Positions 11,060 to 41,098 of a DNA stretch of 41,098 nt are shown here, piece by piece. Positions within the stretch are counted from its first letter, which is position 1. Every line of letters starts with the position of its first letter. Both the position numbers and the translations under genes were made by a program. The notes beneath the pieces are model-generated. The model was not told the DNA's origin, did no database searches, and worked only from the letters and a program-made list of their open reading frames with translations. Where the stretch lies: the IMG/VR virus record IMGVR_UViG_3300049793_000074, positions 1-41,098 of that record; one strand, 5' to 3'. The stretch comes from a virus.

Positions 11060-13884
11060 TGGGCCGTCAAGCATATCCAATCATCGGCGGCATCATTGGT
11101 GCCGTTGTCGCGTTCATCGCAACCGATGGAACGGCGACCTGGCAGGGCTACCAGGCGGGGTTCGCCCTGGGCGCAGCCATCGGCGGCATTGCCGGTTCCT
11201 ATATCGATCCGATCCTGATTCAAGGCAACAAGGTCGGGGATCAAAAGTTCCAGGTGGCGGCCGAGGGTGGCGCGCGAGCGATCATGTATGGACGGGCATG
11301 CGTCCAGGCAACATGCGTCATCGCGCGTGGAAATCGCAAGGTGGTCAATACCAAGACCAGTAACGGTAAGGGTTCGTCCGGCAGTACGCAGAATGAGACG
11401 GTTCACTGGACGTTTGCCATCGGTATCGGTGAAGCAATTCCCGGCAGCTCGATTGCCCGGATTTGGCAGGATGAGACGTTGGTTTACGACATCCTTGGCG
11501 ACAGCTCCGTGAGCGTTGCGGACAACATCAAGTTCGCTGAGAAATATCGGTTCTACGATGGGGCCGAGACGCAGCTTCCCGACCCTGACCTTCAGGTGTT
11601 CCTCGGAGAAGACACGCCGTATTTCCGTGGAACGGCCTACGTGGTATTTCCGAATTTCGATTTGACCAACACCGCTGAGCGTGTGCCGACGTTCAAGTTC
11701 GAAATACTGAACGGCGTGGCCGGTATCATCGTTGACGTGGAGACGTTGCAATGGAGCATTCCTAACGGAACAGTTCATACACCATCGCAATCCGTTACCC
11801 TGACCGGGCCGGCCGACGAACTGTTCAACATCGATATCTTCCTTACCGGCGACATGGAAGCTCGCATGTATAGCGACCCGAGTGTCACTGTCGTTGGTGG
11901 TGCTGGCCGTTTCATTACCGCCGACAATTCGACGGCGGTGGATGTGGGAGCCGATGCCTGGAGCGGTTTCAATATCTATACCGTTACCATCGACTCCCCG
12001 CCACAGACGTACTATGTGAACGCTGCGTTGGCCGGCGAGCATGTTCACCAACACGTCATCACTGACGGTTCCGATGTGTACAAGCTCTCCATCCAGGCGG
12101 CTGGTAACGCTACGATCACGTTTGCCGCTAACGATGTGAATGGCGGAAGCGACTTCTATCCGCAGTACGGAACTGTGCGTGCCGATGTCAGCGGTCAAGA
12201 TTCGTCTAGTGGCACAACGATTTCGCTCGCCACTGTCGCCAGCGACATTATGAAACGCGCCGGCATGGTGGCGTCCGAGTTCGATGTCACAGCACTCGAC
12301 AACAAGATAGCAGGCGTGTGCGTGGAAAATACTGTCTCCGGTGTTGAAGCGTTGAACGCGATCACGCAGCCGTTCTTTATCGATCCCTGCGAAGCGGATG
12401 GTGTGCTGAAGTTCGTCAAGCGTGGCGCGCCGGTTGTGCGCGTTCTCACGTTCGACGACCTAACGGAAGAACCCGATGTGCGTACTCGTGAGAACGCCAT
12501 CGAGTACCCGGGCACTCTCGATTTCTTCTACCAGTCGCCCGCCGCAGGCTATGCCACCACGAAGGCCACAAGCCATCGCTACAGCCCACAGTCTGACTCC
12601 GGTGGTGAGGGCAGCGTCAGTGCTCCGGTGACGTTCTATAGCTCGGACGAACCTGCACAGATCGCGGCAAAGCTTCACAAGGTCATGTGGACGGAGGCGG
12701 GTGGATCGCTCACATGGAAAGTCACGAATGACTGTATCGATTTGATTCCTACCGATGCGCTGGGTCTGTCGCTGCGTGGCGTCGTGACGCGCGTTCGGAT
12801 CATCGCGACAGAATGGGATGGCGACACTATCGTGTTGTCGATGATGGCTGATCGTCAGAGCAGCTATACCAGCGACGTGACGGGGATTCCGTTGCCCACG
12901 CCGACCCCTCCGCTGCCGGCGACAATGAGTAAATCGGTACTGGCCGTGCTCGACATACCGCCGCTCCAGGATGCAGACGACTCGCTGCTTTACTACACCG
13001 CGTGCAGCGGCGAAACGTCGGTATGGCGCGGTGCTCAGGTTCAACGCAGCTTGGATGCCGGTGCAACCTGGTCAGCAGTTGGAGAGGTAACGTCTGCGAC
13101 GACCATGGGTCGACTGACAGCAACGATGACCGCTGCCGATAGCAGCTATATCGATACAAGCAACACGGTAACGGTTCTGCTGTTCAACACCGACGACGAA
13201 ATCGCCAGTCTCAGTGATACAACGTTCCTGCAAGAGCAGGGTGGAATCGCGGTTGCGCTGACCGATGGAACCTGGGAAATCATGCAGTACCGTGACGCCG
13301 TGGATAACGGTGCCGGCTCGTGGACGTTGAGCTATCTCCAGCGCGGTCGAATGAACACTGTCGCGGGTGCCCACGCTGTCGATGCACTGTTCGTGGTGCT
13401 CGATACCACGATGCTGCGCCTGGCGGCTCAGACCGCATGGCTCGACGGCGACTTGAAGCATCGCGCGGTGTCCTACGGCGAAAGTGCCGACGATGCCACG
13501 GTGGTGACGACCACCTATCACGGGTTGACCGAAGTCGAATGGAGTCCCGCCAGCGCCATGGCCGAATATGATGGAACCTACGTCTACGTTCATGACATCG
13601 TGCCGCGTGACCGTTTCGGTACTGAAGTGAACCCCATCGAGAGCATCAATTTCAACGGGTATCGAATTACCCTCATTCATGGAAGCGACACAGTGACAGC
13701 AGACATTTCAGCCGGAAGTAACAGCGGGCACGTCGTTTCCGACCCGCTCAGCACCGTTACCACGGTAACGGTTGCAGCTCTCAACAAGATCACGGGGCCA
13801 GGTGATGCGATTACCTTGACTCCTATGAGCGTGGCAGCGGGAACGCTGACGCCTGAGGCAATCGTCAATGGCGGGGGTGCGTGA
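11059..13884 (+). CDS. Central tail fibre / tail tip attachment protein (gpJ-like)
   Basis: A 941-residue protein whose ATG shares an A with the upstream TAA. The first 60 residues contain a Gly/Ala-rich hydrophobic stretch (YPIIGGIIGAVVAFIA; GAAIGGIAGSYID), seen in tail-tip proteins of the PF13550 / GTA gp15 type. The middle includes WTFAIGIGEAIPGSSIARIW, ENTVSGVEALNAITQPFF and DDLTEEPDVRTREN, typical of baseplate-hub folds; the C-terminal half carries fibronectin-like segments. The protein forms the tail tip and triggers infection. It lies directly after hub and peptidase genes, as in lambda (L-K-I-J). Confidence 0.88.
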   Translation: MGRQAYPIIGGIIGAVVAFIATDGTATWQGYQAGFALGAAIGGIAGSYIDPILIQGNKVGDQKFQVAAEGGARAIMYGRACVQATCVIARGNRKVVNTKTSNGKGSSGSTQNETVHWTFAIGIGEAIPGSSIARIWQDETLVYDILGDSSVSVADNIKFAEKYRFYDGAETQLPDPDLQVFLGEDTPYFRGTAYVVFPNFDLTNTAERVPTFKFEILNGVAGIIVDVETLQWSIPNGTVHTPSQSVTLTGPADELFNIDIFLTGDMEARMYSDPSVTVVGGAGRFITADNSTAVDVGADAWSGFNIYTVTIDSPPQTYYVNAALAGEHVHQHVITDGSDVYKLSIQAAGNATITFAANDVNGGSDFYPQYGTVRADVSGQDSSSGTTISLATVASDIMKRAGMVASEFDVTALDNKIAGVCVENTVSGVEALNAITQPFFIDPCEADGVLKFVKRGAPVVRVLTFDDLTEEPDVRTRENAIEYPGTLDFFYQSPAAGYATTKATSHRYSPQSDSGGEGSVSAPVTFYSSDEPAQIAAKLHKVMWTEAGGSLTWKVTNDCIDLIPTDALGLSLRGVVTRVRIIATEWDGDTIVLSMMADRQSSYTSDVTGIPLPTPTPPLPATMSKSVLAVLDIPPLQDADDSLLYYTACSGETSVWRGAQVQRSLDAGATWSAVGEVTSATTMGRLTATMTAADSSYIDTSNTVTVLLFNTDDEIASLSDTTFLQEQGGIAVALTDGTWEIMQYRDAVDNGAGSWTLSYLQRGRMNTVAGAHAVDALFVVLDTTMLRLAAQTAWLDGDLKHRAVSYGESADDATVVTTTYHGLTEVEWSPASAMAEYDGTYVYVHDIVPRDRFGTEVNPIESINFNGYRITLIHGSDTVTADISAGSNSGHVVSDPLSTVTTVTVAALNKITGPGDAITLTPMSVAAGTLTPEAIVNGGGA

Positions 13885-19256: not shown

Positions 19257-19276
19257 GCACAAATCATTATCGTTAC
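19257..19276. promoter_or_regulatory. TAACGATTTGTCA-type site before MazG-like gene
   Basis: GCACAAATCATTATCGTTAC lies 28 bases upstream of the MazG-like start on the minus strand. Its first 13 bases match the reverse complement of the motif at 10 of 13 positions. It shares the ATCGTTA extension with the site at 26588. Confidence 0.45.
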
Positions 19277-19492: not shown

Positions 19493-21493
19493 TTACCCGC
19501 CGATGCCCATGTCAAGTAGCATCTTTTCGGCGACGTTCTCATAGAAGTGGTAATCGATATCAGCCGGCAGAGCGTCCGGCAAATCCATGCACAGCTTGGC
19601 ACCATCGGAGCCCGCGACCTTGTTACCACTCTGCGCGTCTACGATGTAGTCGCCAGTCGTGGTGGTCGAGTAATACCAGCGGATCGCTCTACCGTAGTTC
19701 ATATCGGGCAAATCGGTACTCATGCGAGCACCACCCTTGGCACCACGTACCCGGATGAACTTGCGGATGTCGTTACAGCCACGGATGGTTTGAGACAGCA
19801 GCGTTCCCTTGGACAGATAAGCCACGACGGCTTCGGCGCATACGTCGATGTCCGGGTGCTTGCCAGCGGTGGCGTCCGGGCTGATGACCCCGCTGCGGCC
19901 GTAGCGACCCTTGCGCTTGACGCTGCCGTCGAACTGGAGGGATATATAGCTGTTGACCGACTCGGAGCAGAGCGCGAGGTATGAGCTGACTTCGAGCGTG
20001 AGATTGCAGGTTCGTTCCCACCAGGCCAGGATGTTGTCGCGGATACCCTCGTAACCATCGGGGACGAACATTTCGATACCGTCCGTATTCGCCGACATGA
20101 CGCGAATTCCGCTGATGGTCAGCCGTTCGATCAGCATGAGCAGCGACAACTGTCCGTAGCCCACGGTAACGGTAATGCCCATTTGCGGATGATAGAAGAT
20201 CGAGTGGCGCGAGAACAGCTTTCCGAACGTGCCGTTATTGACAATCTTGAATCCATCGGTAACGGTTTTGAGCGTGTTGTATTCTTCGCCGACCGGCAGC
20301 GTGGGCAACGTCGTTTTTGCCACGTCGCGTTCGCGCTTGAAGCCGCCGTAAATCTCCTGGAACAACGGCCCAAGCTGAGGCGGATTCATCGCGCTATTGA
20401 CAATATTGGTCGGGTAATATGCGGCCACATCGGCGGTGGTTAATGTGCCCACGCCGGGAATGCTACGGACGGTGGTCTTTTTCTCCTTGCTGTGAAGGCC
20501 GCCGATACCCATGCGGAACGTCGAGCCACCAGCATGGATGTCCAGACCCTTCAGTTCGGGCGGCATGACCACGCCGGTCTTCAGCTTCTTGCCGTCAGGG
20601 CCGAGTTCTTCTGTACCGTCCGACAGCAGTAACGCTTCGTCCTTATCGGTCAGCGTGAACTCGCAATTGCGAACCAGCTCCAGAACGCTCTGCATGTACG
20701 GGGTAACGAAATGGACGTACTCCGGGATGATGCATTTGAATTTGTGGCCGTGGGCAAACTTCGGAATGATCGGTGACAGCGTGCCGTCCCATTTGACCTC
20801 GTAGTCGCGGACGCTGGGCACCAGGTTATCCAGCTCTACCCGGAGCCGGCGCGACCACTCGACTTTCACCATCGCTTCGGCCATTTGGGCATCCGACTTG
20901 CTGCGTAGGTCGATGCCATAGCGTTCGGATAGTTTGATGCGCAAATCGATACGGGACTTGATCGCCTCGCGGAGTTCGAGCGTCACGCGGCGGTCGTTAC
21001 GGCAGTAGTTGACTTCCTGCGGGATGTGCGCGTGGTCGATGGGAACTTTGAAGTCGACAGGGCTGTCCTGCACCTTCTTGCTATGTAGGCGGCACGCATA
21101 TTGTTTTAGCGTCACGCGCACGCCGGGAGTAGGCTCCATCACGTCGATATGGTCAATCCAGTCGGGGATGCGGAGCCCGTACTTCTTGAGCATCACCCAC
21201 CATTTCATGCCACCGACGATCATTTCGTCATTGGCCTGTTTGAGCTGCGCGCAGTCAGCGCCGGACAGCGCAAGAAGCAGCATTGGCAAATCGTAATTTA
21301 CGCCATTGAAGGTCACGACCGTGTAATGCCTTAGCAGCGTCTCGATAGCTCCCACATCCAAACGAGTGCCGGGGATCATTTGATAGTCCCACTCCGTGCC
21401 GGTTGTTGCGTCGGTTATCCCGATCAGGAACCAGTTGTGGAAACACTCGATATCCACGCCGGCTTCGGGGCGGCGTTGGTTCGTCCAGGTCAT
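19493..21493 (-). CDS. Family B-like DNA polymerase with 3'-5' exonuclease
   Basis: A 666-residue replicative polymerase; ATG 21493 follows TGGAGTAACG and precedes MTWTNQRR. Exonuclease motifs: Exo I D14-I-E16, Exo II TFNGVNYDLP (61-70), Exo III YCRND (163-167). Polymerase motifs: A DVAAYYPTNI (D355), B KIVNNGTFGK (416-425), C ANTDG (468-472), plus KRKGRYG near 526. Motif C has Asn where family B enzymes usually have the first Asp of DTD; the second Asp (D471) is kept. The protein is compact, without long inserts, like polymerases of several siphophage groups. It would copy the phage genome with the primase-helicase and SSB encoded nearby. A terminator separates it from the upstream SSB gene. 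Confidence 0.88.
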   Translation of the reverse strand: MTWTNQRRPEAGVDIECFHNWFLIGITDATTGTEWDYQMIPGTRLDVGAIETLLRHYTVVTFNGVNYDLPMLLLALSGADCAQLKQANDEMIVGGMKWWVMLKKYGLRIPDWIDHIDVMEPTPGVRVTLKQYACRLHSKKVQDSPVDFKVPIDHAHIPQEVNYCRNDRRVTLELREAIKSRIDLRIKLSERYGIDLRSKSDAQMAEAMVKVEWSRRLRVELDNLVPSVRDYEVKWDGTLSPIIPKFAHGHKFKCIIPEYVHFVTPYMQSVLELVRNCEFTLTDKDEALLLSDGTEELGPDGKKLKTGVVMPPELKGLDIHAGGSTFRMGIGGLHSKEKKTTVRSIPGVGTLTTADVAAYYPTNIVNSAMNPPQLGPLFQEIYGGFKRERDVAKTTLPTLPVGEEYNTLKTVTDGFKIVNNGTFGKLFSRHSIFYHPQMGITVTVGYGQLSLLMLIERLTISGIRVMSANTDGIEMFVPDGYEGIRDNILAWWERTCNLTLEVSSYLALCSESVNSYISLQFDGSVKRKGRYGRSGVISPDATAGKHPDIDVCAEAVVAYLSKGTLLSQTIRGCNDIRKFIRVRGAKGGARMSTDLPDMNYGRAIRWYYSTTTTGDYIVDAQSGNKVAGSDGAKLCMDLPDALPADIDYHFYENVAEKMLLDMGIGG

Positions 21494-22806: not shown

Positions 22807-23922
22807 CTATTTCCTTGAAGTGAAAGCCTTGAGGGCTTCGAGTGGATCGGTTGCCTTCAGGGCGAGTTCGCCCGTGGGCTGTTCTGCGAACATGGCTTCG
22901 ATGTCGATACCGGGGATGGTGCCGCGCAGCTTGGCCGGCGATAGGAGCTTCACAGCGTGTACATCCACGCCGAACAGGCGGCCGACCTGTTCAACTTCGG
23001 CCACCTTCTCGTCACGCCAGCGTTTACGAGTTGCACGACGCTCCAGGCCGTAGCCGGGCACGCGAGTCCCGCGACGAATCAATGATTCGGCTTGCGCCGA
23101 CAGACCCGTGATGCGGTGCTCGATATGCTGTGCTGCGGCTTGCAACTTGTGCAGCTCGTAAGCGAGTTCGTTCGGAGAGAGTTCGTGCGGCGTGGCATCG
23201 TAGGACGTTTCGATACCACGGCCACCAGCGGCTTGCAGGGAGCGGCACGCGTGCCCCACCGCGCAGTTATCGCATGTCTCGTTGACCACGCACAGAGGAT
23301 TGTCGGCGTGGGCATTGAGCGCTGCTTCCTGCAACTCGGCGGCTAGGATACGCAACTCGTCACGATCAACGAGCCACGTCCTGACAGTGCCATCCTTGTG
23401 AGCGGCACGCGGCTGAATGATGGTCAGTTCCATTTCCGTCAGGTGTGGGAACAGGGACATGATCGTCCAGGCGTAGACCACGAGCTGCTTATTGCGCCAA
23501 ACTTCGACAGGTCGAAACCCCATCTTCAGATCAGCGAGCCGGCCGCGCGTCGACGTGGGCAGCACCAAGTAAGCATCCGGCGTGCCGTCGCTGGTGCCCT
23601 TGAAGAACGCACTCGTGGGCATCGTCTGTTCCAGCACTGCACGACCCGGCCAGGTCATGAGGTACTGGATATATTCGTCTGCGCCTCGAAACAGTTCCTC
23701 CGTCAGCACTCGGAAGTTGGGGGACATGGAATCGACCGCAGGTTCGCGACCGTCCCATATCTCTTGCGACAACCAATGAGTGGCCGTGCCGTCCTCGCGC
23801 ACATCGTTACCGCGATCCTCGATAGGTGCCTTGACCTCGGTACACAGGCGAGCATAGCCCGCACAGATACCCCAGGTTTCGGCCTTCGAAGGCCGCAGAT
23901 AGATGACGCGACGGACGATCAT
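22807..23922 (-). CDS. RecB/Cas4-like PD-(D/E)XK nuclease (DUF2800-like)
   Basis: A 371-residue protein starting at ATG 23922, overlapped by the upstream TGA (TGATG); longer in-frame codons lie inside that gene. Nuclease motifs: H49 region (GTATHW), GTSDGTPDAYL with D112/D116, and DLK (D131, K133), followed by Q145. Cysteines C20/C27 and C211, C217, C220, C226 (CDNCAVGHAC) could hold an iron-sulfur cluster, as in Cas4 and AddB. These enzymes act as single-strand exonucleases in recombination and replication. Downstream is the SSB gene, a typical partner. Length fits DUF2800 proteins. Confidence 0.82.
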   Translation of the reverse strand: MIVRRVIYLRPSKAETWGICAGYARLCTEVKAPIEDRGNDVREDGTATHWLSQEIWDGREPAVDSMSPNFRVLTEELFRGADEYIQYLMTWPGRAVLEQTMPTSAFFKGTSDGTPDAYLVLPTSTRGRLADLKMGFRPVEVWRNKQLVVYAWTIMSLFPHLTEMELTIIQPRAAHKDGTVRTWLVDRDELRILAAELQEAALNAHADNPLCVVNETCDNCAVGHACRSLQAAGGRGIETSYDATPHELSPNELAYELHKLQAAAQHIEHRITGLSAQAESLIRRGTRVPGYGLERRATRKRWRDEKVAEVEQVGRLFGVDVHAVKLLSPAKLRGTIPGIDIEAMFAEQPTGELALKATDPLEALKAFTSRK

Positions 23923-24826: not shown

Positions 24827-26590
24827 ATGTCAACCATGATCGTTACCGCTCCGTCACACCCGCTCATCCTGCGCGGCTACCAAAATGAAACCGTCGTTCA
24901 CGTCGACACTGCTTGGCTCGATCCGATTATCCGCAACATCATCGTGACGTTGCCGACCGGCGCCGGCAAGACGAAACTGATGGCGTACTTCGCCAAGCGT
25001 CACCATGACCGTGGCGGGTACGGCGTGGCTATCGCGCATCGTTCGGTACTGGTGGCCCAACTCTCGATGGCACTCGCGGAGGCCGGTGTACCGCACGACA
25101 TCATCGCTTCTAAGGACGTGGTAAAGACTATCGTTGGTGAGCACATGGAAGACCTCGGCCGGTCGTTCTATGTGCCTGGCGCCAGGTTCAAAGTTGTCAG
25201 CGTCGACACCATGAAGGGTCGGGCTCCAGCATTGTCGAGTTGGATCAAGTTGGTCACGCTCGGGTTCACGGACGAGGCGCACCACGTCCTAGAAGAAAAC
25301 AAATGGGGACGCGAGTGTAATCGTTTCGATAATCCGATGATGCGCTGGCTGTTGCCCACGGCGACACCCGAACGCGCAGACGGAAAGGGACTGGGGCGTG
25401 CAGCGCACGGAATCGCTGACGTTATCGTGAAGGGGCCAACGATGCCCTGGTTGATCGATCACGGCTACCTCACGCGGTTCGTGGTGCGTGGAGTAATCCC
25501 GAGCGACCTCGATTTGTCCAAGGTCGATATCGGGCCGAATGGGGAATACAACCTCCAGCAACTGCGCAAGGCCATCCACGGTTCCAAGAAGATCATCGGC
25601 AGCGTTGTCGATACGTACAAGCGCCTGACGCCGAACAAGCTGGGCATCGTTTTCGCGGTCGACATCAGCCACGCACAATCCATTACCGATGAGTTCAATG
25701 CCAAGGGCGTGCCATGCGAACTCATCACGGGTGAGGAAGACGAGGACAGCCGGCGCAAGAAGCTGAAGCGTTACCGCAAGCGTGAGACGCTGGTGCTGGT
25801 CAACGTCGACCTGTTCGGCGAAGGTTTCGATTTGCCGTCCATCGAAGTCGTGATGATGGCACGGCCTACCGCCAGTTACGCTTTGTTCGCACAGCAGTTC
25901 GGGCGCGGTCTGCGGATCGGCGTGGACAAGGCATATCTTGAGCACTGGGAACGGTACACGGTTGAAGAACGCCTGGCGATCATTACCACGTCGTCCAAGC
26001 CTGTGGCTTTAATTCACGATCACGTCGGTAACGTGTTGCACTTCGGTGGCCCGCCGACCGTGCCGCGAGAATTCACTCTCGACAGCACACGTCGCAGTGG
26101 TGGCCCGAGCGATGCGATCCCGCTGCGGATTTGCCTGTCGCCGACGTGTTTGCAACCGTTCGAGCGCTTCTACACGCATTGTCCGTACTGCGGCTTCAAC
26201 GTGCCGCCGCCGCCATTGCCCACGCTGCCCGAACAGGTTGACGGCGACCTGGTGCTGTACACGCCCGAAATGCTGTGGAAGCTGTTCAAAGTGACAACGG
26301 TACAGGCTGCGCTGGCGATCCAGCCCGACGCTTATGTCAAGATTCCGCCGACTATGACATCACTTGCAGAGGTGCGCGCACGGCAGGCGAACCACAACAA
26401 GATGATCCTGGCCCAGCGCGAGCTGTCGGCGCTGATGCCGCTGACGATGCCGCCTCGATATAGCGAGCGTGAAAACCAACGCCGATTCTTTCATCACTAC
26501 GGGATGGACGTGGTGCAGACGAGACTGTTGACTGCCAGCGCCACGGAAGAATTGATCAGCAGGATCAAAAACAGCTTGACGGTGCGATGA
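24827..26590 (+). CDS. SF2 DEAH-type helicase, RadD-like, with C-terminal zinc finger
   Basis: About 587 residues from ATG 24827 (or ATG 24836 three codons later); there is no strong ribosome site. Helicase motifs: Q-like LRGYQ near 15, I LPTGAGKT (about 43), II DEAH (about 149), III TATPER, then V GFDLPSIEVVMMARPT and VI QQFGRGLR (about 355). A CxxxxC...CPYC cluster near 435-456 (CLSPTCLQPF ... HCPYCGF) makes a zinc finger. This layout resembles RadD/YejH, which supports recombination repair with SSB. First gene of the rightward operon. Confidence 0.85.
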   Translation: MSTMIVTAPSHPLILRGYQNETVVHVDTAWLDPIIRNIIVTLPTGAGKTKLMAYFAKRHHDRGGYGVAIAHRSVLVAQLSMALAEAGVPHDIIASKDVVKTIVGEHMEDLGRSFYVPGARFKVVSVDTMKGRAPALSSWIKLVTLGFTDEAHHVLEENKWGRECNRFDNPMMRWLLPTATPERADGKGLGRAAHGIADVIVKGPTMPWLIDHGYLTRFVVRGVIPSDLDLSKVDIGPNGEYNLQQLRKAIHGSKKIIGSVVDTYKRLTPNKLGIVFAVDISHAQSITDEFNAKGVPCELITGEEDEDSRRKKLKRYRKRETLVLVNVDLFGEGFDLPSIEVVMMARPTASYALFAQQFGRGLRIGVDKAYLEHWERYTVEERLAIITTSSKPVALIHDHVGNVLHFGGPPTVPREFTLDSTRRSGGPSDAIPLRICLSPTCLQPFERFYTHCPYCGFNVPPPPLPTLPEQVDGDLVLYTPEMLWKLFKVTTVQAALAIQPDAYVKIPPTMTSLAEVRARQANHNKMILAQRELSALMPLTMPPRYSERENQRRFFHHYGMDVVQTRLLTASATEELISRIKNSLTVR

Positions 26591-26606
26591 CAAATAGTTA
26601 TCGTTA
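26588..26606. promoter_or_regulatory. TAACGATTTGTCA-type site before gene 26633
   Basis: TGACAAATAGTTATCGTTA overlaps the helicase stop and lies 27 bases before the next ATG. Its first 13 bases match the reverse complement of the motif TAACGATTTGTCA at 12 of 13 positions. It is followed by a second ATCGTTA half. Confidence 0.5.
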
Positions 26607-26632: not shown

Positions 26633-27217
26633 ATGAACAGCAAGTCGCTCATCAGCGTTTGGAACCACACGCAACAACACAAGAGCACCAGCGGCGCGCG
26701 AGTCTGCGCGGCCGTGCTCCTGGGCCTGTACAACGGCGCTCGCTTTCCCATGGACTTGACGGAGCTGCGGGTGCTCGACCCTGACCTACGCGATCACTGC
26801 TTCAAGGTCATCTACAGCGACGCGAAGCACTGCCAGCGCGAAGTGCACGAGTGGCTGAACTGCATCAGCGGTCGACGCGACCTCGGCACACGGTTCGAGG
26901 AACTGGCGTGGGAGTACCAGTGCTTCAAGCGTGGTCGCTGCAAGGCCAGCGATCTGTCCATCGGGAAGATGTCTCCGTTGATCATCGATTATCCGTTGAT
27001 CAACGGCAAGGACATGATCGACGATGAACTGTTCGTCGCCGAAGTCAAGCGCGCTGCATCGCTGATGACCGGCGTCACCATCGTGGAAGACGCCAGCGTG
27101 CCGCCCGGTGAACTGCGCGTCGTTCAGGACGGCAAGGTAACGGGCGCCGCGCGTTTCGACATCGACGCGCACCACCGCGCCGAGTCCACTCCGTTCTTCA
27201 ACGACCTGGCGGGCTGA
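26633..27217 (+). CDS. Conserved phage protein, unknown (DUF7673-like motif)
   Basis: A 194-residue protein with the exact start element GGAGTAACGAAATG. Residues 19-75 contain a pattern, ARVCAAVLLGLYNGARFPMD followed by LTELRVLD, that recurs in phage proteins of unknown function (the DUF7673 type). The C-terminal part has strands ending in ELRVVQDGKVTGAARFDI. It opens a run of overlapping genes that encode immunity, topoisomerase-like and nuclease proteins. The name is a motif-level guess. Confidence 0.65.
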   Translation: MNSKSLISVWNHTQQHKSTSGARVCAAVLLGLYNGARFPMDLTELRVLDPDLRDHCFKVIYSDAKHCQREVHEWLNCISGRRDLGTRFEELAWEYQCFKRGRCKASDLSIGKMSPLIIDYPLINGKDMIDDELFVAEVKRAASLMTGVTIVEDASVPPGELRVVQDGKVTGAARFDIDAHHRAESTPFFNDLAG

Positions 27218-29620: not shown

Positions 29621-30277
29621 ATGTCCAAGAAACCCGTTCTCATGCCCAAGGCAGAACGTCGAGAGGCCGCGCTGGTCGTCGCCCTCAAGCTCGCCAAGAA
29701 GGTGGGCGCCCGCCGCGTCTCCATGGCGATGGTCGCCGCCGCGCAGAAAGTGACGGCACCGCTGCTGTTCCACATCTTCGAGAGCCGCGAAGGTCTGACC
29801 AAGGCCATCCTGAAGGCCGCGAAGGCGCAGGGCGTCGTGCTTCCCGAGGCTGCGCCGACCGTGCGAGAGGCCAGGGCGGCGACCAAGAAGCCGCTGAAGG
29901 CACTGAAGCCGCTGGCGGTTCCGGCGAAGGGCGCCAAGCCTGCCAAGCTCGGAAAGCTGATCAAGCCGAAAGCGCCCGTCAAGAAGGTCGCCGCGCTCCT
30001 GCGTCCGAAGCTGCCGATCAACGTCGTCAAGGCGATCAAGAACAAGGAGGCCGCGAAGGGCGTGGACGGGATCAAGCTGAACGCCAAGTTCTCCCTGCCG
30101 AAGCCGGCCACCAAGAAGGCCGCAACGGTCAAGCTCGCAGCCCCGGCTGGCCAACGTGCCGCCAAGAAGGCCCGCGATGCCGCCCGTCGCGCACCGGCTG
30201 TGGTGTCCACGCCGGCAAGCAAGTTCGCCAGCTTGCCGGCGCCGTTCGAAGCCGCACTGGCCCAGGTCGGGGCATGA
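29621..30277 (+). CDS. TetR-like HTH fused to lysine/alanine/proline-rich tail
   Basis: A 218-residue protein with start element GGAGTACCGAAATG. Residues about 12-68 read as a TetR-family DNA-binding domain: helix 1 AALVVALKLAKKVG, then VSMAMVAAAQKVTAPLLFHI and FESREGLTKAILKAA, with the expected helix-turn-helix spacing. From about residue 75 the protein is a basic, low-complexity Lys/Ala/Pro tail (KKPLKALKPLAVPAKG; PAKLGKLIKPKAPVKKVAAL) like histone H1 or AlgP tails. There is no TetR ligand domain. It may bind specific sites through the HTH and coat or compact DNA through the tail. It is a candidate binder of the repeated motifs in this genome. Confidence 0.7.
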   Translation: MSKKPVLMPKAERREAALVVALKLAKKVGARRVSMAMVAAAQKVTAPLLFHIFESREGLTKAILKAAKAQGVVLPEAAPTVREARAATKKPLKALKPLAVPAKGAKPAKLGKLIKPKAPVKKVAALLRPKLPINVVKAIKNKEAAKGVDGIKLNAKFSLPKPATKKAATVKLAAPAGQRAAKKARDAARRAPAVVSTPASKFASLPAPFEAALAQVGA

Positions 30278-32101: not shown

Positions 32102-32262
32102 TGTGGCACCATGCCCGCGAGACGCCACCCTACCAGGGCTATTGCCGCTGCCTCTTCGCACAGGCACCGTTCCTGCATCATCGAATCTGGTGGTCAGGCG
32201 AGCGTTGGGAGCTGCGTGGGCATCCACTGGATACGACCGGCTTGCTGGCTTGGTATCGGTAA
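32101..32262 (+). CDS. Very small protein, unknown
   Basis: A 53-residue frame from ATG 32101, with TGGAG upstream and a TGATG overlap. An in-frame ATG at 32050 would add a hydrophobic N-terminus but lacks a ribosome site and overlaps the previous gene widely. The sequence is rich in Trp, His and Cys (RIWWSGERWELRGHP). No family recognised. Confidence 0.5.
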   Translation: MWHHARETPPYQGYCRCLFAQAPFLHHRIWWSGERWELRGHPLDTTGLLAWYR

Positions 32263-32272
32263 CGATTTGTTG
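32260..32272 (+). promoter_or_regulatory. TAACGATTTGTCA-type site before primase
   Basis: TAACGATTTGTTG, preceded by TATCGG, matches the motif at 11 of 13 positions. It lies in the 65-base gap before the primase-helicase gene, upstream of a strong hairpin. Confidence 0.5.
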
Positions 32273-32307: not shown

Positions 32308-32327
32308 TGTCGCTCTATACTAACGAT

Positions 32328-34910
32328 ATGACATACCCTGACCAGTACATGATCTATCACCTCGTGTCGTGGAACGAGGAAAAGCACAAGTGGAACAAGA
32401 AACCAGTAGGGCTCGACGGTGCGCCGCTACCGACCGAGCAGGGCATACCGACCAGTTCTGACCGCGCGGCCGTCGTCGATACCGTCAATGCGCTCAACGC
32501 CGGCCAGCAGCCGCCGCGCTACATGCTCGGCCTGTGGCTGCACCCTGATTCGCAATTCTTCTTTCTCGACCTGGACGACAACGCGGTACAGGACGGACGA
32601 CTGACACCGTTCGCTAACGCCCTCGCGTCACCGTTCGTCACTGCCGGTTGCTACTTCGAAGCGTCCACGTCAGGCCGTGGCGCGCACATCATCGGTCGTT
32701 ACCATGGCGTGCTGCAACCTTTCAGCACCAGTCGTAAGCGAGTCCACCCGCATGAGTTCTTCGTGCGTGACCGTGGCGTCGTGCTGAACCCGGACGCCCA
32801 CTCTGGCGACTGGAACGCAGACGCTACTGCGCTACTGCCGGCACTGCTCACGGAGCACTTCCCACCACGGCATGCCAACGATGAGCTGTTCGAGTTCAGC
32901 GACACCCCGCGTACCGAATGGCGCGGCCCGGTCGACGATGACGACTTGATCCGTCGCTTCCTCTCGGCCACTGGCAGTGCAGCGGCCCGGCTGCGCGGTT
33001 CTATCTCGCTGCCTGACCTGTGGAACGGCCGCTGCCCGCACAGCAGCGAGTCCGACCTGGCGCTGGCCTCGCACCTGGCGTTCTGGACGGGTTGCGCCGC
33101 TGCTCGCATCGAACGCCTGATGCGCCGCTCACCGCTGGCCGCGCACCGTCTCGACAAGTGGGACAGCCACCGTACCTACCTGCGCGAACTAACGATCCGT
33201 GAAGCCTGCGTGACGACTCGCACTGTCTACCACGAACCCGAGCGCGTGGACACGGCCGCCGCGATCCTCGGTATCGGTCGTCCACCACTGCGACCGCTCA
33301 CTGCTCCAACTGCACCGCTCGGCATCACTGTCAACGGCGCACCCACTGAACTCCTGCCGCCGCTGCCCGCCGCTGACTGGCACGCGATGGTCGACCAGGC
33401 AATCAGCGCGATCAACAACGCCGGCACGTTCAAGGAGTTGGCTGACAACGTAATGCCCGGCCTCGGCAACTACGGCTTCCCACGTCTACACGGAGAACGC
33501 ATCGTTACCGCACTGGGCAAGAAGCTTGAAATCTTCGACGCCAAAATGTCCGTAAGCCAACTCCGCGCTCTGGTCATGCCGCCAGCACTGGCCGAACAGC
33601 TCGCACAGAACACTGTCCCGGAGTGGGCGCAGTCCCTCGTGTACCTGATCAAGTCGGACAAGTTCTTCGACACCGCAACAACTGACGAGTACAGCCACGA
33701 AGCCGTGCGCATGGCGTTCAACCGTCACATGCCCATGAAGCCCACCGGCTCGCGTGAAGACGTGATCGTCTACCTGCGTGACCGCTGGCAAATCGACACC
33801 CTGGAGGACGCCGAGTACCGCCCGGATCAGCCGCCGACCTTCGAGCACGCCGGCAAGCGATTTGCCAACAGGTTCCTTGCCTCAACCATGCCCACGCCGG
33901 TTATCGGTTCGGACGAGTGCAGCCAGTGCATCCGTCTCCTGCAAGAGCACCTGTATTCGATAACCAATCGGCGTGACGCGATCTATTGGAGCCTGCTGTA
34001 CTGGCTTGCACACAACGTGCAGCGGCCTGGCGTCAAAATCCGATGGTCGCCGCTGATCAAAGGCGTTCCAGGTGACGGTAAGTCCATCATCGGAGACCTC
34101 CTGTTCGCGGCACTCGGAGCTGCGAACGTCAAGATCACATCACCGAACACGCTGTCGAATTCCGGCGGCTTCACGGACTGGGCGCTCGGTGGCTGTGTCA
34201 ACGTCATCGAAGAAATCCGCCTCGAAGGAAAAGAACGGCGCCGGCTGTATAACGGAATGAAGACGATTATCGGAGATTCCCGTATCGATCCGAACCGAAA
34301 AGGCAAAGCATCTTCGCTCACCCTGGTGAACGTGACGAATCACGCTGCCTTCACGAACTATCAGGACGCGCTGCCAACGGAGAACGGCGACCGTCGCTGG
34401 ATGATCGTTTTCACGCCGTGGCCTGACGCAGACGGTGCAGCGGCTGCCAAGGGCCTGCCTGGGGCCGATAGCCTGCCTGCATACTTCAAGCGATTGGGGG
34501 CAAGCATGCGTGCAGAGCCGGGGGCGTGGCGAGCGTGGCTCATGGGTATCGATTTGTCGCCATTCGACGCTGATGGTCGCGCCCCGTTCACGGACGAACG
34601 ACAAGCCATGACGAATTCCAGCGAAGATTTCACGGAGCAGACGGTACGTGACGTGATCCTGCAAGGTGGGTCGGGCGTGGACATCGAAGCGTTCTCGTCT
34701 GTCCTGCTGATGAACCGTGTCCAAGTTTCGTTGGGCGAAAAACCAGATACCAGAAGCTGGAACAGGATCTTGACGGATCTTGGCTACCAACAACACCCTG
34801 TCCAAATTTGGTGGTCTGGTCGTTCTCATCGTGCCTGGACGAAAAAATCACTGGAGAAGGACAAAATCTTGGAAATTTTCAACCGTTCTGCGTTCAACGT
34901 TCCGAGCTGA
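32328..34910 (+). CDS. Primase-polymerase/helicase (AEP plus D5/SF3-like)
   Basis: An 860-residue protein; ATG 32328 follows the element TAACGAT, though with no Shine-Dalgarno (a GTG at 32298 is an alternative). The N-terminus resembles archaeo-eukaryotic primases of the NrS-1 type, with the catalytic pair in FFLDLDDN (about 80-85) and TSGRGAHIIGRYHG. A helical segment LPDLWNGRCPHSSESDLALAS follows. From about residue 560 lies an SF3/D5-type helicase with Walker A GVPGDGKS (about 579-586), IEEI as Walker B, and TNHAAFTNY. It should open the origin and make primers. The downstream gap contains the repeat cluster. Confidence 0.85.
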   Translation: MTYPDQYMIYHLVSWNEEKHKWNKKPVGLDGAPLPTEQGIPTSSDRAAVVDTVNALNAGQQPPRYMLGLWLHPDSQFFFLDLDDNAVQDGRLTPFANALASPFVTAGCYFEASTSGRGAHIIGRYHGVLQPFSTSRKRVHPHEFFVRDRGVVLNPDAHSGDWNADATALLPALLTEHFPPRHANDELFEFSDTPRTEWRGPVDDDDLIRRFLSATGSAAARLRGSISLPDLWNGRCPHSSESDLALASHLAFWTGCAAARIERLMRRSPLAAHRLDKWDSHRTYLRELTIREACVTTRTVYHEPERVDTAAAILGIGRPPLRPLTAPTAPLGITVNGAPTELLPPLPAADWHAMVDQAISAINNAGTFKELADNVMPGLGNYGFPRLHGERIVTALGKKLEIFDAKMSVSQLRALVMPPALAEQLAQNTVPEWAQSLVYLIKSDKFFDTATTDEYSHEAVRMAFNRHMPMKPTGSREDVIVYLRDRWQIDTLEDAEYRPDQPPTFEHAGKRFANRFLASTMPTPVIGSDECSQCIRLLQEHLYSITNRRDAIYWSLLYWLAHNVQRPGVKIRWSPLIKGVPGDGKSIIGDLLFAALGAANVKITSPNTLSNSGGFTDWALGGCVNVIEEIRLEGKERRRLYNGMKTIIGDSRIDPNRKGKASSLTLVNVTNHAAFTNYQDALPTENGDRRWMIVFTPWPDADGAAAAKGLPGADSLPAYFKRLGASMRAEPGAWRAWLMGIDLSPFDADGRAPFTDERQAMTNSSEDFTEQTVRDVILQGGSGVDIEAFSSVLLMNRVQVSLGEKPDTRSWNRILTDLGYQQHPVQIWWSGRSHRAWTKKSLEKDKILEIFNRSAFNVPS

Positions 34911-35094
34911 GAGCCTGAGAGAATGACCTGAGAGGCGCTAAGTTGTTGATTTGACTCAGTTTCTATTCTCTCTCTCTCAGCTCTCAGGAAAAAAAGAGAA
35001 TAAGTGGCTAGCTGAAAAATATGCCCTGTTCTTCAAAAAGGAGGCTGACCAATAAAAACACCCGAGAGGCCACCCGAGAGGTTTTCCTGAGAGG
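34907..35094. repeat. CTGAGAG repeat cluster in AT-rich gap; candidate replication origin
   Basis: Three direct CTGAGAG units (34907, 34915, 34928) are followed by two inverted units CTCTCAG (34974, 34981), and then three direct (C)C(C/T)GAGAGG units (35061, 35073, 35086). The inner region 34985-35060 is AT-rich (AGCTGAAAAATATGCCCTG; AATAAAAACAC), unlike the GC-rich surroundings. The outer and inverted copies could pair: GAGCTGAGAG at 34904 with CTCTCAGCTC at 34974. It follows the primase gene directly. Iteron-like arrays beside a primase often mark origins; function here is inferred. Confidence 0.6.
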
Positions 35095-35139
35095 AATCCA
35101 ACGGCGTGGACAAGATCATCAACTTTCAAGGAGTTCATC

Positions 35140-39329: not shown

Positions 39330-40307
39330 TTACGCTGCGATCAGATCGAACGCCTTGTTTTTCAGTGCGTCCCCTTGTCCCCAATGGGAGGCAACGGCAC
39401 GATGTTCGTCGCTGTACGCGCGGGCCTCATGATCCACGTAATCCGTTACCGCGTTGAGCCACCCCCACCCGGTGTTGAGGGAGGTTCCAAGGAGAGATCC
39501 CTTACCGGCGCCTGAGAACGAAGCCATGATTTTCTGGAACGCTGCGGAGTCACGCGCCGCTTGTTCGTCACGGGCGCCCGTGGTCAACAACTTGGCAGTG
39601 AATGCCTGCGCTTGCGTGCTGGTCACGCGAATCTGTGCGAGTCGGCGCGCGGTTTCGCAGAATGCGCCGAACTCACCATGTGCGGCCTCCACTGCGGCGC
39701 GTGCTTCCGCAGGCTTGAAGACGCTACGGTGTGTCGTGCGATGGCTCGCCTTTGAATCCTTGCGCGCCATGGTCAAAGTGTTGTTGCACACCGTGCGCAC
39801 GGTCGTCCACCGGCATTCCGTCGCGAGGGAGCCATCCGCGCTGGTGCTCAACAGAGCATAGGGGACTACCTTGTCGCCTGAGCCGATCATCACGCCATCG
39901 GCAAGCTTGGCCGTCGCGAAATATCGGCGCCCGCCGAACAGGACACCAGCTGACTCGATTTGCAGGCCGCCTTCGTCTGCCCACTGGCGGAAGAACTCCA
40001 ACACGGCGCGCGGTTGGACGATTTTGTAACCCTCGGACACGATGCCCAAATCGGCCTTGGTGTCATCACGGAACAGGACAACTTGCCCGTCGACCTTGCG
40101 GAATGCGTCCGGTTGTTGGTCGCCCTCGGCGTGACTGACAGCGAAACGAACGCTCGCACGCTTGACGCTGTAGTTCATGCCCGCAGCGGCCGACCACTCT
40201 TCGATGCTCGCGCCGCGCATCATGGTTTCGCCGAGTCCGTGCCACTCGCGTTCGGTGGAAGCGTAGGAGGCGCGGCCGATGCTGGTTTCGTCGATTTGGT
40301 GTGCCAT
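39330..40307 (-). CDS. DUF932 (phage/plasmid TIGR03299-like) protein
   Basis: A 325-residue protein; ATG 40307 follows AAGGAATC. It shows the DUF932 pattern: MAHQIDE...EREWHGLG at the start, then GVVFRDDTK-like VVLFRDDTKADLGIVSEGYK, VQPRAVLEFF, GGRRYFATAKL, TECRWTTVRTVCNNTLTMA and SHRTTHRSVF. Family members are common in phages and plasmids next to replication or accessory genes; their biochemical role is not known. A TAACGATCTGTCA site lies about 50 bases before its start. Confidence 0.88.
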   Translation of the reverse strand: MAHQIDETSIGRASYASTEREWHGLGETMMRGASIEEWSAAAGMNYSVKRASVRFAVSHAEGDQQPDAFRKVDGQVVLFRDDTKADLGIVSEGYKIVQPRAVLEFFRQWADEGGLQIESAGVLFGGRRYFATAKLADGVMIGSGDKVVPYALLSTSADGSLATECRWTTVRTVCNNTLTMARKDSKASHRTTHRSVFKPAEARAAVEAAHGEFGAFCETARRLAQIRVTSTQAQAFTAKLLTTGARDEQAARDSAAFQKIMASFSGAGKGSLLGTSLNTGWGWLNAVTDYVDHEARAYSDEHRAVASHWGQGDALKNKAFDLIAA

Positions 40308-40356
40308 GGTGATTCCTTGAAGTTAAACAGTACAGGGGAGATTCTGACGGACGCGG

Positions 40357-40369
40357 TAACGATCTGTCA
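40357..40369 (+). promoter_or_regulatory. TAACGATTTGTCA-type site before DUF932 gene
   Basis: TAACGATCTGTCA matches the motif at 12 of 13 positions. It overlaps the stop of the upstream split frame and lies 50 bases before the DUF932 start. Confidence 0.5.
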
Positions 40370-40600
40370 ACCGATCATGTTGCAGTCACTGACGGTGTAG
40401 CCAAAGCGTTCCGCCAGCGCAGCGGCCTGCGTCCTCGTGTTCGCTTCGCATTCCAGCGGGCCACGATGCGTGCCCATGCGGTACAGGTGCGAGGTGCCTT
40501 ACACGTTGATCCGTGCCACGTTGCCGAATCCACCCAGCGTATGGACGGGTTGCGGCTCAGCGGCGCGCGTGGGAACGGCTGCACCAGTGGGTTTCGACAT
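40367..40600 (-). pseudogene. Small gene split by an in-frame TAA
   Basis: From ATG 40600 (with AAGGAC upstream) one frame runs 33 codons to TAA (40499-40501), then continues in the same frame for 43 codons to TGA (40367-40369). The parts read as one protein: VHTLGGFGNVARINV, stop, GTSHLYRMGTHRGPLECEAN, then AAALAERFGYTVSDCNMIG. Changing the TAA to CAA (Gln) would restore a 77-residue protein. It may be a nonsense mutant, a sequencing error or stop readthrough; two short proteins are also possible, since an ATG lies 7 codons after the stop. Confidence 0.5.
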
Positions 40601-40786: not shown

Positions 40787-40846
40787 GTTGCGTGCCTCAA
40801 TGCGGGTTGGTGATGCAATGACTATATGCATGTGCCGTGCCAACTC

Positions 40847-41095
40847 TGACAAATCGTTAGTAACGATCCGTTCTCATAGGTGAATGAGGGCTCTACTAGA
40901 TGTGTGAGTGTCACCACGTGCAGGGTAACGATGTGACAATTCCTGTCAGTGTGACGATTTGCGTCACTAAATCTCTGACAATTCTTGTCACTCGCAAGCG
41001 GCATGCCAGCTATAACGATTTGTCAAATGTTGGCACCGATGCAGCGCATGCCCCGGCCGGTAACGATAAGAGTTCGGACGGATGACAAATCGTTA
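40847..41095. promoter_or_regulatory. Non-coding control region with motif and dyad array
   Basis: About 310 bases at the right edge (40787-41098) have no convincing gene. TAACGATTTGTCA occurs exactly at 41013-41025, and as its reverse complement at 40847-40859 and 41083-41095; a looser copy lies at 40926-40938. Bases 40853-40867 form a perfect palindrome ATCGTTA-G-TAACGAT. Three 15-bp dyads follow: TGACAATTCCTGTCA (40934), TGACGATTTGCGTCA (40952) and TGACAATTCTTGTCA (40976), all TGACR-N5-YGTCA. On the minus strand TTGACA (plus 41021-41026, read TGTCAA) is a perfect -35 box, but no matching -10 was found. The region likely holds operators for the leftward operon. Confidence 0.65.
40934..40990. 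repeat. Three 15-bp dyads TGACR-N5-YGTCA
   Basis: Dyads start at 40934, 40952 and 40976, spaced 18 and 24 bases apart, close to two helical turns each. The first and third differ by one base. This is the layout expected for a dimeric repressor or activator with cooperative binding. Confidence 0.7.
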
Positions 41096-41098
41096 GAC

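Follow-up and report, generated by a model that had tools for sequence, protein, structure and literature searches.

What does a 13-bp word that recurs before separated operons do in the genome of a tailed phage? The word, TAACGATTTGTCA, reads TGACAAATCGTTA on the reverse strand, often with a T in front. The stretch of DNA analyzed here, hereafter the window, comprises a linear virus record of 41,098 bp from an uncultured virus of bacteria. Rightward structural genes occupy its left end and are followed by leftward polymerase and exonuclease genes, then by the helicase, primase and lysis genes, in this order and rightward, and by a last leftward group that includes DUF932; no integrase was seen in the window. 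Four related phages were compared with it, G001, G007, Silvanus and Psp6, the last two being cultured. G001 (48,014 bp) is syntenic with the window throughout and shares roughly 40-84% amino-acid identity for most genes, and Silvanus, Psp6 and G007 are more distant. The comparison with G001 returned about 7 kb, from terS to the capsid gene, that are missing from the window.

The three exact copies of the motif were all found where the original prediction had placed them, and dinucleotide shuffles contained none (0.00 expected), thus confirming that the recurrence before separated operons is real. Matches with up to three mismatches numbered 31 against 6.25 in the shuffles. The near copies proposed earlier were likewise recovered, with the numbers of mismatches reported in Table 1. 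That list had missed a match at 32321 (two mismatches), which we rejected as a motif site since it is the start-codon context of the primase gene, TAACGATATG. TAACGAAATG is a recurrent start-codon context in the window with 8 copies, and GGAGTAACGAAATG or close variants occur as start-codon context at many genes (3837, 5292, 15620, 19480(-), 26626, 30550 and 39266(-)).

Table 1. Positions of the motif copies and associated features in the window, and of the corresponding words in the related phages.
Feature	Sequence or genome	Position	Strand	Remark
Exact copy	TAACGATTTGTCA	40847..40859	-	upstream of a leftward small gene starting near 40787
Exact copy	TAACGATTTGTCA	41013..41025	+	opposite strand TTGACAAATCGTTA, the consensus -35 hexamer plus AATCGTTA
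Exact copy	TAACGATTTGTCA	41083..41095	-	adjoins cos-like block
One-mismatch copy		40357..40369	+	overlaps -35 of DUF932 promoter
One-mismatch copy		26588..26600	-	spacer/-10 of promoter before 26633 gene; overlaps helicase gene stop
Two-mismatch copy		40926..40938	+	abuts first 17-bp palindrome
Two-mismatch copy		32260..32272	+	before primase; weak site, without clear promoter
Three-mismatch copy		19257..19269	-	overlaps -10 of promoter upstream of MazG-like gene; doubtful as site
DUF932 gene		39330..40307	-	downstream of 40357 site
DUF7673 gene		26633..27217	+	downstream of 26588 site
Candidate regulator gene		29621..30277	+	TetR_N helix-turn-helix (residues about 10-70) plus predicted disordered Lys/Ala/Pro-rich tail
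17-bp palindrome 1	GTGACAATTCCTGTCAG	40933..40949
17-bp palindrome 2	GTGACGATTTGCGTCAC	40951..40967
17-bp palindrome 3	CTGACAATTCTTGTCAC	40975..40991
Word downstream of helicase	G007, TTGACAATCGTAAA	14613
Word downstream of helicase	G001, TTACGGTTACGGTTACGA	near 20364
Word downstream of helicase	Silvanus, CAGTGAAACCCC	32103
Word downstream of helicase	Psp6, ATCGTAAATTACGAT	near 13271
Word near polymerase	G001	13562	-
Word near polymerase	G007	6591	-
Word near polymerase	Silvanus	22053	-
Word near polymerase	Psp6	5561	-
Word between leftward recombination genes and helicase operon	G001	18635	-
Words between leftward recombination genes and helicase operon	Silvanus	29803; 29839	-; +
Word between leftward recombination genes and helicase operon	Psp6	10974	-
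Words at cos-proximal leftward genes	G001	34529 and 35191
Words at cos-proximal leftward genes	G007	28332 and 28752
Words at cos-proximal leftward genes	Silvanus	44729 and 45262

The earlier statement that every copy lies in a gap or at its edge holds for the strong sites, namely the three exact and two one-mismatch copies (5/5), the one at 26588 overlapping the stop of the helicase gene, which ends at 26590. A weight matrix returned five sites at or above 23 bits, after which the next score falls to 17. With up to two mismatches, 8 of 13 sites are located in gaps, which account for 7.2% of the window (p=7e-7), and so are all six matches to TAACGAT.TG.CA. Five two-mismatch matches (2747, 10028, 15535, 21284 and 34547) lie inside genes, where 0.7 were expected; the motif is therefore not confined to gaps and only its strong sites are, and the comparison of genes with gaps has two sides, strong sites avoiding genes and weak ones being over-represented in them. 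The motif might also be a by-product of over-represented words (GGTAACG, CGATTTG) devoid of any regulatory role, as the window contains 46 copies of GGTAACG, a word with strong over-representation in genes. However, all five strong sites are non-coding or at a gap edge, and relatives with different words keep the corresponding promoter positions; we consider this explanation highly improbable.

Since TGACAAATCGTTA is often preceded by T, the opposite strand of the motif contains the -35 hexamer TTGACA. Inspection for a -35 and a -10 hexamer separated by 16-19 bp returned clear pairs at 40370-40341 and 26576-26604. The first is the DUF932 promoter (TTGACA-N18-CAGAAT, 40370..40341, - strand), whose -35 is covered by the 40357 copy and whose homologue in G001 reads TTGACC-N17-CACAAT. 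The second, before the 26633 gene, reads TTGACG-N17-TATCGT and accommodates the 26588 copy in its spacer, touching the -10. The near copy at 19257 sits on a near-consensus sigma70 promoter (TTGACA-N17-GATAAT), and such a pair is absent at 41013 and 40847, where no -10 could be recognised at the right spacing. As sites overlap sigma70-like promoters, their placement appears to be that of an operator rather than of a non-sigma70 promoter. The suggestion of a promoter element unlike sigma70 was thus not borne out, both because of this overlap with sigma70-like -35/-10 elements and because the Silvanus word lies in either orientation within promoter spacers.

Alternatively, the word could be a component of the promoter, namely an extended -35 element that a host sigma factor recognises without any phage protein, in agreement with the TTGACA embedded in the motif and with the TTGACGAYCGTMA that the G007 promoters have in common from the -35 on. 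However, the word differs at the corresponding promoters of related phages, it lies on the -35, the spacer or the -10 depending on the promoter, and it occurs in both orientations within the Silvanus spacers, which makes an element of this kind quite unlikely.

The exact word of the window is absent from the relatives, so that conservation was judged by position and not by sequence; as for the conservation that the original prediction expected, the positions are kept and the sequence is not. Each relative carries its own promoter-associated word, TTGACGATCGTCAA in G007 (starting at the -35), TTACGGTTACGA in G001, CAGTGAAACCCC in Silvanus and ATCGTAAATTACGAT in Psp6; G001 has TAACCGTAATCGT at the place corresponding to the 40847 copy, and a short contig whose terS region is homologous carries TAACGGTTTGTCT. 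Each of the five phages (window, G001, G007, Silvanus and Psp6) has a word of its own sequence at the helicase 3' end, and most relatives also carry their own word near the polymerase/MazG, exonuclease/RecT and cos-proximal operons (Table 1). In more distant relatives with a TetR_N gene, automatic derivation from this 3' end did not yield a clear repeated word. The genes of Silvanus are annotated, and there each of the seven sites with at most one mismatch directly precedes a gene; both orientations occur, the sites are mostly inside sigma70-like promoters, and three of the seven fall inside an upstream or overlapping ORF. The occurrence of the Silvanus word in either orientation within promoter spacers is as expected of an operator.

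A further word, TAACCTGTAACC, was considered as a version of the motif common to Silvanus and G007 and was discarded, as it forms an array in the primase-endolysin gap and probably represents replication iterons. The same gap contains AACCTGT repeats in Silvanus (40854-41069) and G007 (23391-23606); in the window (34911-35139), as in G001, it shows CCTGAGAGG-type repeats, both direct and inverted, around an AT/CT-rich stretch. This gap is a probable replication origin with iterons of phage-specific sequence.

The last letters of the window, TAGAC (41094-41098), coincide with the start of the block TAGACCGCCCCTTCTCCCA, which precedes terS in G001. G007 and the end of the linear Silvanus record carry close variants of this block. 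The coincidence suggests that the right end of the window is probably a cos site. The 41083 copy reads ATGACAAATCGTTA on the + strand, toward terS beyond the window. Since the 40847-41095 cluster borders the cos-like block, and motif-like words flank this block on both sides in G001, G010, G012 and G013, the copies might represent terminase (cos) or packaging sites. However, the DUF932 and 26633 promoters also have strong copies, at distances of 0.7 kb and 14.5 kb from cos, and we regard a packaging function as very unlikely.

Within the same region, a trio of 17-bp palindromes of the GTGAC-N7-GTCAC type (40933-40991) occupies the same place in G001 and is absent elsewhere in both genomes, possibly constituting a second operator array. 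Located in the divergent early region, it resembles the OR-like arrays of lambda-type CI/Cro operators, but no CI or Cro homologue was found, and the 13-bp motif is a different element from the trio. Other DUF932-bearing viral contigs (L008 4929-8151 and L012-L014) show families of long intergenic palindromes, e.g. ATTCGAGGACANNNNNTGTCCTCGAAT, with group-specific sequence; these were set aside, as those contigs of this kind in which the primase was sought are without it.

As for the protein that might bind the motif, the product of the 29621-30277 gene matched TetR_N (PF00440) in Pfam with E=1.2e-6, above the gathering cut-off, and its Foldseek and HMMER matches were TetR/LuxR-type regulators. 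AlphaFold predicted a three-helix helix-turn-helix (HTH) for residues 10-70 with a pLDDT of about 90 and, after residue about 75, a low-confidence, disordered and Lys/Ala-rich region; the whole-protein model is poor (pTM 0.37) and only its HTH was usable. The usual TetR C-terminal dimerisation/ligand domain is absent from this protein, and the window has no strong motif site in front of its gene. A scan of proteins from the window, and of the early proteins of Silvanus, detected no other transcription-factor HTH.

TetR_N homologues, found only by profile against the ORFs of the relatives, are present at the syntenic place in all five phages, the one of Silvanus at 33453-33950. The Lys/Ala-rich tail occurs in the window, G001, G007 and Silvanus proteins and is missing in Psp6. 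Of 24 loci examined, most encode a TetR_N-like protein downstream of the helicase, a few of the scores being weak, and in most helicase-related viral contigs (L127-L149) small TetR_N-like proteins follow the helicase gene, mostly within 1-4 kb and usually without the Lys/Ala tail. A tblastn search of cultured phages gave no match beyond Silvanus itself, and a literature search limited to open papers returned none that describes a phage TetR_N regulator with such a tail. The recognition-helix residues of the protein differ among the phages, which is consistent with their differing words, the relation being a correlation only. Neither the Silvanus nor the G001 word is palindromic, and the window motif is so only imperfectly (8/13 positions), so that a simple dimer model fails for some of them.

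The separate operons served by the sites, the promoter positions kept in relatives and the syntenic HTH candidate support the proposed binding site of a phage-wide regulator as a putative one. From these features and the promoter-like overlap of the sites, all read directly in the sequences, we infer that a protein binds the motif, that the binder is the TetR_N protein and that the effect is repression. We estimate a probability of roughly 60% that TAACGATTTGTCA/TGACAAATCGTTA is the operator of a phage-encoded DNA-binding protein, most likely the TetR_N product of 29621-30277 and most simply a repressor of early operons. Once made, the TetR_N protein would bind motif copies at several phage promoters of the sigma70 type, which the host RNA polymerase reads, and cover their -35, spacer or -10; the early operons would thereby be shut off. 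Protein and operators would change together between relatives, with specificity diverging quickly, so that positions stay while sequences change.

The weak sites inside genes raise the main rival, which is nevertheless compatible with the operator reading. The HTH protein with its Lys/Ala tail might mark its own genome, binding the strong promoter sites together with many weak sites, genes included, and would then act as a phage-specific nucleoid or silencing protein, like stoperator repressors or SlmA/Noc on dispersed sites. We consider this rather unlikely. The expected number of in-gene matches was calculated from synonymous-codon shuffles keeping protein and codon usage, and the window motif (up to three mismatches) was found 19 times in the window genes against 5.1 +/- 1.4 expected, with no in-gene enrichment for the reversed motif and no clear one in the relatives' genes. 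Own words were similarly enriched in own genes only for G007 (23 vs 7.2), G001 (31 vs 7.7) and Silvanus (67 vs 38). When 200 random 13-mers were drawn from the window gaps, only pieces of the motif itself matched its in-gene level, the same comparison in G007 giving the same result. The most enriched hexamer in window genes is GTAACG. The enrichment concerns the four phages with a Lys/Ala-tailed TetR_N protein and not Psp6, whose protein is tail-less and whose own word is not significantly enriched (z 1.6), a comparison based on one tail-less phage.

On the other hand, the G001, G007, Silvanus and Psp6 words were first picked from whole-genome counts, which favours enrichment, so that their in-gene excess could partly be selection by the analyst; the window motif was chosen independently. 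Matrices built from promoter sites only gave a clear in-gene excess for the window and G007 and a weak one for G001 and Silvanus, the weak sites are perhaps unbound, and another word, CCACGC, is also enriched. Several palindromic words of the restriction type (CCGCGG, CGATCG) do not occur in window genes at all, where about 20 were expected. In a more elaborate and speculative form, which we judge unlikely, a chimeric protein joining a TetR HTH to a histone-H1-like tail would read a fast-diverging word and coat or silence its own genome only; the strong sites would be operators, and synonymous-codon selection would keep the in-gene weak sites, by which the protein would discriminate self DNA from that of the host or a rival phage.

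The operator reading can be compared with known systems. Cluster A mycobacteriophages (L5, TipsytheTRex) are temperate and carry 13-bp stoperators dispersed over the genome, about 20-30 well-matched asymmetric sites in promoters or short intergenic spaces, some at promoters, oriented with transcription and bound by a two-domain monomeric repressor consisting of an HTH plus a stoperator domain (PMC9283540, PMC6550527). The motif shares with them the dispersed 13-bp sites, some at promoters, and the joint variation of motif and candidate binder between relatives. In contrast to stoperators, only 5 sites with at most one mismatch occur in the 41 kb of the window, both orientations relative to the downstream gene are found, the candidate combines a different HTH type, TetR_N, with a disordered tail, and no integrase was seen. 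The candidate resembles TetR-family repressors in its HTH and in the putative operators in promoter -35/-10 regions, whereas a disordered Lys/Ala-rich tail replaces their C-terminal dimerisation/ligand domain. The nucleoid occlusion factor SlmA, which has a full TetR fold and acts on FtsZ, represses when its site falls between -35 and -10 (PMC3573117). A TetR-like HTH and dispersed genomic sites are common to SlmA and the candidate, while the full TetR fold is absent from the candidate and the action on FtsZ is a feature of SlmA.

If the operator reading is right, this phage group, including the cultured Silvanus and Psp6, would provide a testable operator/regulator system in which the positions of the sites persist and their sequences turn over, apparently in step with the HTH protein. 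The excess of own words in own genes would then represent a novel form of selection acting on phage coding sequence across the genome; it could also serve to pair unannotated regulators with their operators in viral metagenomes.
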